Assembly (NCBI RefSeq): GCF_004118375.1
Contig: NZ_SDHX01000001.1
Span: 3,165,693-3,229,692, forward strand
Direction: 5' to 3'
Source of the DNA: Oleiharenicola lentus
Lineage (GTDB): Bacteria; Verrucomicrobiota; Verrucomicrobiia; Opitutales; Opitutaceae
Length of the DNA stretch: 64,000 nt
Below the pieces are notes generated by a model, which did no database searches, was not told the DNA's origin, and saw only the letters and a program-made list of their open reading frames with translations. Positions 9,703 to 62,207 of this stretch are shown here, in pieces. Position numbers and translations under genes: made by a program. How positions within the stretch are numbered: the stretch's first letter is position 1; the number at the start of each line of letters is the position of its first letter.

Positions 9703-9834
9703 CAAAATGGCGGAGAGAGAGGGATTGGCTGCCTTTGGCAGGTGCAAAGCACTCGCGCTTCTCGCGCCCCATATCCCTCTCTTGCATCGCTCCTCGCTGC
9801 CCACCGTTGCACGGTGACGCCATTTGGACTTCGT
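9703..9834 (-). repeat. tRNA-Ser 3'-end-duplicating element
   Basis: A 24-bp sequence (CAAAATGGCGGAGAGAGAGG plus GATT) is present at 9703-9726 and again, exactly, at 9835-9858, where it is the 3' end of tRNA-Ser plus flank. The intervening 108 bases contain hairpins and, at 9773-9782, ATCCCTCTCT, an inverted copy of the tRNA 3' arm, plus CGCCATTTGG inverse to CCAAAATGGCG. The 132-bp unit lies immediately downstream of the tRNA in its reading direction. Confidence 0.85.
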
Positions 9835-9839
9835 CAAAA

Positions 9840-9929
9840 TGGCGGAGAGAGAGGGATTCGAACCCTCGATAGAGTTTCCCCTATGCAGCTTTAGCAAAGC
9901 TGTGCCTTCAGCCACTCGGCCATCTCTCC
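9840..9929 (-). tRNA. tRNA-Ser (anticodon GCU)
   Basis: Complete cloverleaf read on the - strand. The acceptor GGAGAGA pairs with TCTCTCC. The anticodon stem CAGCT/AGCTG holds loop TTGCTAA, giving anticodon GCU, which reads AGC/AGU Ser codons. A long variable arm typical of class II tRNAs follows, then T-arm GAGGG-TTCGAAT-CCCTC. The 3' CCA is encoded. Its 3' end is duplicated downstream (see the element at 9703-9834). Confidence 0.97.
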
Positions 9930-61835: not shown

Positions 61836-61913
61836 GGCGGTCATAGCTCAGTTGGTTAGAGCACAAGATTGTGAATCTTGGGGTCGCGGGTTCGAGTCCC
61901 GTTGGCCGCCCCA
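61836..61913 (+). tRNA. tRNA-His (anticodon GUG)
   Basis: Cloverleaf with the extra 5' G typical of tRNA-His, opposite C73. Acceptor GCGGTCA pairs with TGGCCGC. D-arm GCTC...GAGC, anticodon stem CAAGA/TCTTG with loop TTGTGAA (anticodon GTG), T-arm GCGGG-TTCGAGT-CCCGT. CCA is encoded at 61911-61913 and followed by TTTTT. Its 3' end is repeated downstream in a tandem element. Confidence 0.97.
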
Positions 61914-62207
61914 TTTTTAGCCCGGTTGACCTTTGCGGACGTTCACTCCGTGACCGCACCGCACAGGAAGTAACGGGACGAGAACCCGCCGGGTTCGTGG
62001 AGCGCAGCGGAACGACCCATCCGCAGGATGGGGGGCGCAGCCCCGAGCGTAGCGAGTCAATCCCGTTGGCCGCCCCATTTTTAGCCCGGTTGACCTTTGC
62101 GGACGTTCACCCCGTGACCGCACCGCACAGGAAGTAACGGGACAAGAACCCGCCGGGTTCGTGGAGCGCAGCGGAACGACCCATCCGCAGGATGGGGGGC
62201 ACAGCCC
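61897..62207 (+). repeat. Tandem tRNA-His 3'-end-duplicating element
   Basis: Unit 1 begins with the tRNA 3' end at 61897 (TCCCGTTGGCCGCCCCATTT) and runs 164 bases; unit 2 begins at 62061 with the same sequence and continues to 62207 with only three mismatches. Inside, AACGGGACGAGAACCCG at 61972-61988 matches the reverse complement of the tRNA T-arm (61887-61903) at 15 of 17 positions. Further hairpins include CCCATCC-GCA-GGATGGG and AACCCG-CCGGGTT. No protein-coding potential is seen. Confidence 0.88.

Follow-up and report, generated by a model that had tools for sequence, protein, structure and literature searches.

In the present study, we describe a widespread group of small, structured units that lie behind tRNA genes, resemble the RtT RNA of Escherichia coli and are probably mobile among tRNA genes, perhaps by means of GIY-YIG nucleases. 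The group was recognised from a tandem unit behind a tRNA-His gene in the window, that is, the whole 64,000-nucleotide stretch of Oleiharenicola lentus DNA analysed here. Judged by their sequences, the units are real and general, falling formally under the cut-off of the Rfam RtT model and yet having the same build. We infer their mobility from comparison, movement itself not having been observed.

The host gene of this unit is an intact tRNA-His(GTG) at 61837-61913 (ARAGORN; Rfam tRNA, 70.4 bits), which lies on the forward strand, as do all parts of the unit. A spacer (61914-61971) leads to the folding module. The module begins with an inverted T-arm, AACGGGA (61972-61978), the partner of TCCCGTT (62061-62067) in a predicted closing helix. 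The hairpin GAACCC-GCC-GGGTTC follows at 61982-61996, as defined by the alignment and the consensus fold, and its right arm is included in CGGGTTCG (61990-61997), the 5' half of the T-arm. Two further hairpins were placed at 62016-62032 (CCCATCC-GCA-GGATGGG, variable) and 62033-62043 (GGGC-GCA-GCCC). The right end of the cassette, GAGCGTAGCGAGTC (62045-62058), abuts a copy of the tRNA-His 3' end that runs from A58, in the second half of the T-loop, to CCA (AATCCCGTTGGCCGCCCCA, 62059-62077). A second unit (62078-62207) with its own inverted arm (62136-62142) then ends before reaching its own right end. Comparison of 61897-62043 with 62061-62207 gave 147 bases at a spacing of 164 with mismatches only at first-copy positions 61947, 61980 and 62037. 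These results confirmed the 164-bp tandem repeat of the original prediction and its stop at about 62207, and the copy was better begun two bases earlier, at AATCC (62059). The inverted T-arm claimed at 61972-61988 was likewise confirmed, since 15 of its 17 bases equal the reverse complement of the T-arm, and it follows the adjacent tRNA. The tRNA-His of the window now reads AGTCCC where its copy reads AATCC, and tRNA-His in several relatives reads AATCCC.

We then searched the whole genome (4.71 Mb, two contigs, 43 tRNAs) for re-copied tRNA ends. The 3' end was found again within 800 nt downstream of 5 of the 43 tRNAs and upstream of none, and a control with tails swapped between tRNAs matched in 14 of 1806 pairs, some of them because the tRNAs are clustered. 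Chance duplication was therefore rejected. The five tRNAs were Ser(GCT), His (tandem), Gln(TTG), Glu(TTC, two copies) and Met(CAT). A sixth case was tRNA-Ser(CGA), whose unit has been displaced by a 5.6-kb insertion, giving 6 of 43 tRNAs in total. The inverted T-arm of the own tRNA was present in five of the six cases (His, Gln and Glu, and in a shorter form at the two Ser genes), and in those five it was followed by small hairpins and then by tRNA bases A58 to CCA. The short units measure 98-165 bp between tRNA and copy. The Gln unit combines the full cassette with a GIY-YIG frame interrupted by one stop. The Met(CAT) case represents a second type, with an intact GIY-YIG gene (Pfam PF01541, 46.8 bits), a hairpin and a 34-nt tRNA copy. 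A recurrent feature beginning GCCTTCGC was also noted directly after CCA at L143, L144, L146, L127 and several tRNAs of this genome, and at some loci it precedes a GIY-YIG gene.

The second unit of the window lies on the reverse strand behind tRNA-Ser(GCT) (9840-9929). Its inverted T-arm, AGAGAGGGAT, occupies 9773-9782, and an exact copy of the tRNA 3' end, AATCCCTCTCTCTCCGCCA, occupies 9708-9726. The original prediction had called this element similarly built but different. The similar build (inverted arm and tail copy) was borne out; the element is not unrelated, being a shorter form that omits the GAGAACC...GGTTCG part. The covariance model described below (R1) returned five matches in this genome, and the tRNA-Ser(GCT) unit was absent from them.

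Many tRNA species have such units behind them, either single or in tandem. From the tRNA onwards, the full form consists of a spacer, the inverted T-arm passing into GAGAACC (often GATGAGAACC), GGTTCG, the hairpin cassette and AATCC...CCA, where GGTTCG is again the 5' half of the T-arm. The cassette (GAGAACC, the CCGCAGG hairpin, GGGCGCAGCCC and GAGCGNAGCGAGTC) recurs at different tRNAs as well as in E. coli, and it does not consist of tRNA sequence. Its right end is mostly like GAGCGNAGCGAGTC, and the Glu units end differently. The consensus structure was evaluated with RNAalifold on the joint alignment, which proposed the closing helix between inverted arm and tail, with 11 of 20 pairs changed on both sides. 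The covariation score was 0.486, compared with 0.132 ± 0.012 after shuffling and at most 0.133 with slid partners, and 88.9% of cells could pair among 49 distinct sequences; the result is favoured because the alignment was fitted to the same structure. Comparative evidence of this kind indicates that the multi-helix fold covaries and is conserved. The checks proposed in the original prediction included listing the tRNAs that have a downstream copy of their 3' end and folding the unit. The former yielded the five tRNAs above. In the latter, the His unit of the window folded singly was no better than shuffles (z -1.11; 28 of 200 shuffles equally good), and seven other units folded singly gave z values from -1.68 to -5.35.

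To survey the distribution, the model R1 was built from 10 sequences (7 from Verrucomicrobiota and 3 from E. coli). It matched in 36 of 288 Verrucomicrobiota genomes and 25 of 151 genera (E <= 0.001, strict filters). Locus statistics were taken from 63 loci fetched out of all R1 matches, with tandem matches pooled per locus, 6 of which were training loci. At the 57 non-training loci (34 genomes), a same-strand tRNA was found within 800 nt upstream at 46, and the tail differed from that of the adjacent tRNA at no more than 4 of 19 bases at 36 loci and at no more than 2 bases at 33. The tRNA was not found at 11 of the 57, and the tail was poor at 10 more. The units behind tRNAs show the order known from RtT, with the last 19 bases of the tRNA, an inverted T-arm and hairpins, and the matching tail was present at 36 of the 57 loci. 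The host tRNAs included four Ser isoacceptors, His, Glu, Tyr, Gln, Met, Arg, Pro, Thr and selenocysteine. The original prediction had supposed a general feature of the tRNA genes in this genome, or two chance duplications if His and Ser were the sole cases and relatives lacked units. The 6 of 43 tRNAs here, five of them with a direct downstream copy, the 36 of 288 genomes and the 36 of 57 matched tails support the former and exclude the latter.

A tRNA-gene-free pattern scan of named genomes extended these observations to other phyla. It produced 32 matches in 30 contigs, 23 of which sit 24-250 nt behind a same-strand tRNA, and the tail showed at most 4 differences in 16 of the 32. The matches came from Enterobacteriaceae, Erwinia, Mixta, Rheinheimera, other Gammaproteobacteria and Verrucomicrobiota. 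The tRNA was not found at 9 of the 32, among them the matches in Paenibacillus, Bryobacterales and Rhodoferax, which may be due to chance. Applied to two enterobacterial genomes, R1 gave 8 matches in Mixta and 7 in Enterobacter. The 12 loci fetched from them, at 7 sites, lay behind tRNAs for Ser, Lys, Tyr or Pro or behind a tRNA-like gene whose end is of the Ser type, and carried tail copies. R1 gave no match in the genome that carries the Rheinheimera pattern locus.

It has long been known that the tyrT operon of E. coli contains a repeat with a 19-bp tRNA end. We found that tyrV and tyrT of E. coli MG1655 are followed by units of the same build (RttR; Rfam RtT, RF00391). Like the units described here, those of the RtT RNA stand in tandem behind a tRNA, end with its last 19 bases (A58 to CCA) and contain the inverted T-arm, the GGTTCG half and the CCGCAGG hairpin in the same order. 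The RtT RNA differs in that the units of Verrucomicrobiota and other phyla span many tRNA species. None of the 16 Verrucomicrobiota genomes tested exceeded the gathering score of RF00391 (45 bits), and matches under it occurred at L061 (29.1 bits), G194 (38.2 bits), L110 and L029. The E. coli RtT (rttR) repeats were the only named example of such units that we found, and within the open-licence literature we found no work linking RtT to mobility, host-matched arms or GIY-YIG. In PMC4986893, the transcripts of several tRNA operons, tyrT among them, are described as the source from which RtT is released, and RtT is tied to the stringent response. A tandem GA motif noted in RtT in a section of PMC7657543 may correspond to the GATGAGAA strand of the units. 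A portion of PMC2658671 lists the rtT RNA with a 175-bp variable-number repeat.

The relation of the inverted arms to their hosts was assessed with an 11-base permutation test; an earlier unanchored test of the longest exact match had been weak. We used 29 of 30 elements, one duplicate being dropped, and restricted the test to tRNAs whose T-loop was recognised and whose tail measured 17-22 nt. The summed fit to the reverse complement of the own T-arm was 167, compared with 111.7 ± 7.9 expected, and none of 20000 permutations was as high. Since R1 rewards pairing between arm and tail, the 16 elements that it found (0 of 20000 permutations as high) are biased, and the 13 found by other means offer the fairer test. 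These 13 scored 77 against 53.8 ± 5.6, with 2 of 20000 permutations as high, in a split made post hoc; without L061 and L062, the remaining 11 gave 4 of 20000. At many single loci, the fit was no better than chance. According to the pooled sequence test, the inverted arm tracks the adjacent tRNA.

The bodies of the units were also compared, using the 63 fetched R1 loci. In genome G084, the Glu and Arg units agree at 101 of 118 body bases, and each carries the inverted arm, T-arm half and tail of its own tRNA. Units at different tRNAs of one genome had a mean body similarity of 0.684 (n=28), compared with 0.630 for units at tRNAs for the same amino acid in different genomes (n=277; p=0.001, the pairs not being independent). 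Such likeness of bodies at different tRNAs of one genome is, as a comparative argument, the best evidence for movement between tRNA genes that we infer here.

The occupation of a single site pointed in the same direction. Within the genus, the site behind tRNA-His holds the tandem short unit in the window, one short unit in G007 and G011, a GIY-YIG gene in G001, G005 and G015, and nothing recognisable elsewhere (e.g., G020). At the empty site of the congener G020, about 136 nt separate the tRNA from the start of the same downstream gene. The sequence GCCCGAGCGGAGCGAACCAAG without a tail, resembling a decayed cassette end, was observed downstream of tRNA-His at the otherwise empty site L075 (G004).

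The strongest alternative holds RtT-like units to be ancient RNAs with a function, which are set free from tRNA transcripts and vertically inherited; on this view, selection for the fold and for tRNA-type 3' end processing keeps their arms and tails matched. It accords with the covarying helices and with the RtT release and stringent-response link noted in part of PMC4986893. In addition, the rttR RNA annotated in E. coli MG1655 ends, by coordinates, at the CCA of the first copy. This end and the conserved fold also lend support to the suggestion of the original prediction that the unit could form an RNA. Moreover, many tails are perfect beside decayed spacers, which points to selection acting on the tail or to its correction by recombination. 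Nevertheless, purely vertical inheritance fits poorly with the scattered distribution of the units (36 of 288 genomes under strict filters), with a congener that lacks a unit at the same tRNA and with bodies common to different tRNAs within one genome, and we regard this explanation as unlikely, though one to be taken seriously. A duplication that is only local, in which template switching at the T-arm hairpin copied and inverted the tRNA ends and no mobile element took part, would account for arms and tails of host sequence and for the common tandem arrays. However, the cassette common to different tRNAs and E. coli is not tRNA sequence and needs a common source, which leaves this account improbable.

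The boundary of the copies bears on how the units might enter. Identity with the tRNA ends exactly at A58 in 42 of the 46 copies listed, which come from 29 of 103 tRNAs examined, or in 39 of 43 without three doubly counted E. coli copies. The count takes in only copies with at most 2 mismatches and leaves out, for example, Met in L018 and Asn in L120 and L132. The exceptions were three GIY-YIG loci (two His, one Met) and one copy of an entire tRNA. Past the CCA of the last copy, identity extends for 0-8 nt at 25 of 29 tRNAs and for 15-58 nt at the other 4. A MITE or other derivative of a DNA transposon with a target duplication of fixed length was ruled out, because the left edge is fixed at A58 but the identity on the right varies.

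The 3' ends of tRNA genes are classic integration sites, and the original prediction had compared the unit with elements that are moved by integrases. Integrative elements with tRNA attachment sites likewise insert at the tRNA 3' end and leave a whole tRNA and a copied end, whereas the short units start at a fixed A58 and no integrase frame was seen in them. The only integrase island that we found is separate from the units. It is the 5.6-kb insertion between tRNA-Ser(CGA) and its copied 3' end (L273, G000:C1:999900-1006600), which encodes a tyrosine integrase (Pfam Phage_integrase, 62.2 bits), a helix-turn-helix protein and a replication-associated protein. Its repeat reaches nine bases to the left of A58, and an RtT-like unit lies just beyond it; the island thus arrived later than the unit. 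The comparison with integrases was therefore not upheld, and the view that the copies are attachment-site duplications left in tRNA 3' ends by islands or phages, to which the island of this genome lends some colour, is very improbable given the different left boundary, the later arrival of the island and the one cassette common to units at many tRNAs.

Returning to units that move among tRNA genes, the T-loop GGTTCG^AATCC would be opened between positions 57 and 58, and the unit would enter with flanks matched to the tRNA entered. The whole tRNA would stay on the left, and its displaced 3' half would become the right end of the unit. This is in line with the original prediction, according to which the unit brings its own copy of the tRNA end and thereby keeps the tRNA intact, as was found. 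Tandem arrays could then grow through recombination between direct repeats. By analogy with E. coli, the unit may be transcribed with the tRNA and released as a CCA-ended RNA, which would explain the intact copied tail beside a decaying spacer. With less assurance, the break may be made by small GIY-YIG nucleases whose genes lie at the same place and sometimes in the unit, and the short units would then be non-autonomous.

The association with these genes was considered from both sides. We took the 57 best-scoring GIY-YIG loci, chosen regardless of tRNAs, some from related genomes and including UvrC-sized proteins, and found a same-strand tRNA 9-414 nt upstream of 24 of them. One of the 57 had an upstream tRNA on the opposite strand, and one of the 24 had an extra tRNA on the other side. 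On re-examination, most of the tRNA-adjacent loci lacked a clear copy of the tRNA end. A weak GIY-YIG match without a clear copy was also seen at G000:C2:54728-54898, about 220 nt behind the same-strand tRNA-Ala(CGC) (C2:55120-55192). The GIY-YIG locus L183 ends in GTC|AATCC. A nuclease gene was found within the element at L018, L029 (with one stop), L106 and L154. At L106, a 136-bp non-coding unit precedes one of 673 bp that carries a GIY-YIG gene and has the same cassette end, and L154 holds a GIY-YIG gene and an RtT-like cassette within one unit. In the second element type (L018, L074, L076, L120, L132, L136 and L201), a GIY-YIG gene behind the tRNA is followed first by a hairpin and then by a copy of the 3' part of the tRNA that is longer than in the short units, and in several the hairpin replaces part of the anticodon arm. 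Neither the His nor the Ser unit of the window showed a GIY-YIG gene. At one further R1 locus, such a gene is divergent and lies upstream of the tRNA. Because an intact GIY-YIG gene lies inside the unit in only 1 of the best 30 R1 loci and in none of the 30 named contigs of the pattern scan, the nuclease link is suggestive, not general, and it is no more than possible that these nucleases mobilise RtT-like units.

A more far-reaching version of the mobile reading is offered tentatively, at less than even confidence. The units would be cross-phylum, retargetable selfish RNA elements, in which the core hops between tRNA genes, the T-loop TTCG^AATCC is opened by GIY-YIG nucleases in cis or trans, the inverted and direct arms are re-templated from each host tRNA, the tRNA is never lost, and the E. 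coli RtT RNA is a resident descendant. Its odds are slightly reduced by the selection bias of the arm test and by how seldom GIY-YIG genes lie inside short units. If mobility holds, a curiosity of the E. coli tyrT operon would become one case of a broad family, with a strategy of landing on the most conserved part of a tRNA while leaving the gene unharmed. It would also offer a role for the small GIY-YIG genes behind bacterial tRNAs, and would caution that a small-RNA annotation behind tRNA genes may describe a mobile element.

The units were finally compared with other known elements. Elements with GIY-YIG homing endonucleases are alike in that their small GIY-YIG genes occupy a single conserved type of site, in some cases next to a copy of the target end, but differ in that the short units here have neither a nuclease gene nor an intron and the tRNA is uninterrupted. 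A group I intron was rejected, as the tRNA is whole and, in the window, only tRNA matches reach Rfam gathering scores. The REP and BIME palindromic repeats of enterobacteria are also small structured bacterial repeats, whereas the units here sit behind tRNAs and carry a tRNA tail; part of PMC2965389 assigns attenuator candidates resembling rtT to BIMEs. Rfam sX4 (RF02223) was observed to match tRNA-Ser together with the start of the unit below its cut-off, at 36-40 bits (L105, L106 and L110), and sX4 may partly describe tRNA-Ser genes that carry such units; according to a section of PMC11124144, sX4 copies came up in an analysis of tRNA sequences. At L171 (G304:C46), the 3' end of a tRNA-Sec recurs four times behind the gene, at +121, +242, +383 and +541.
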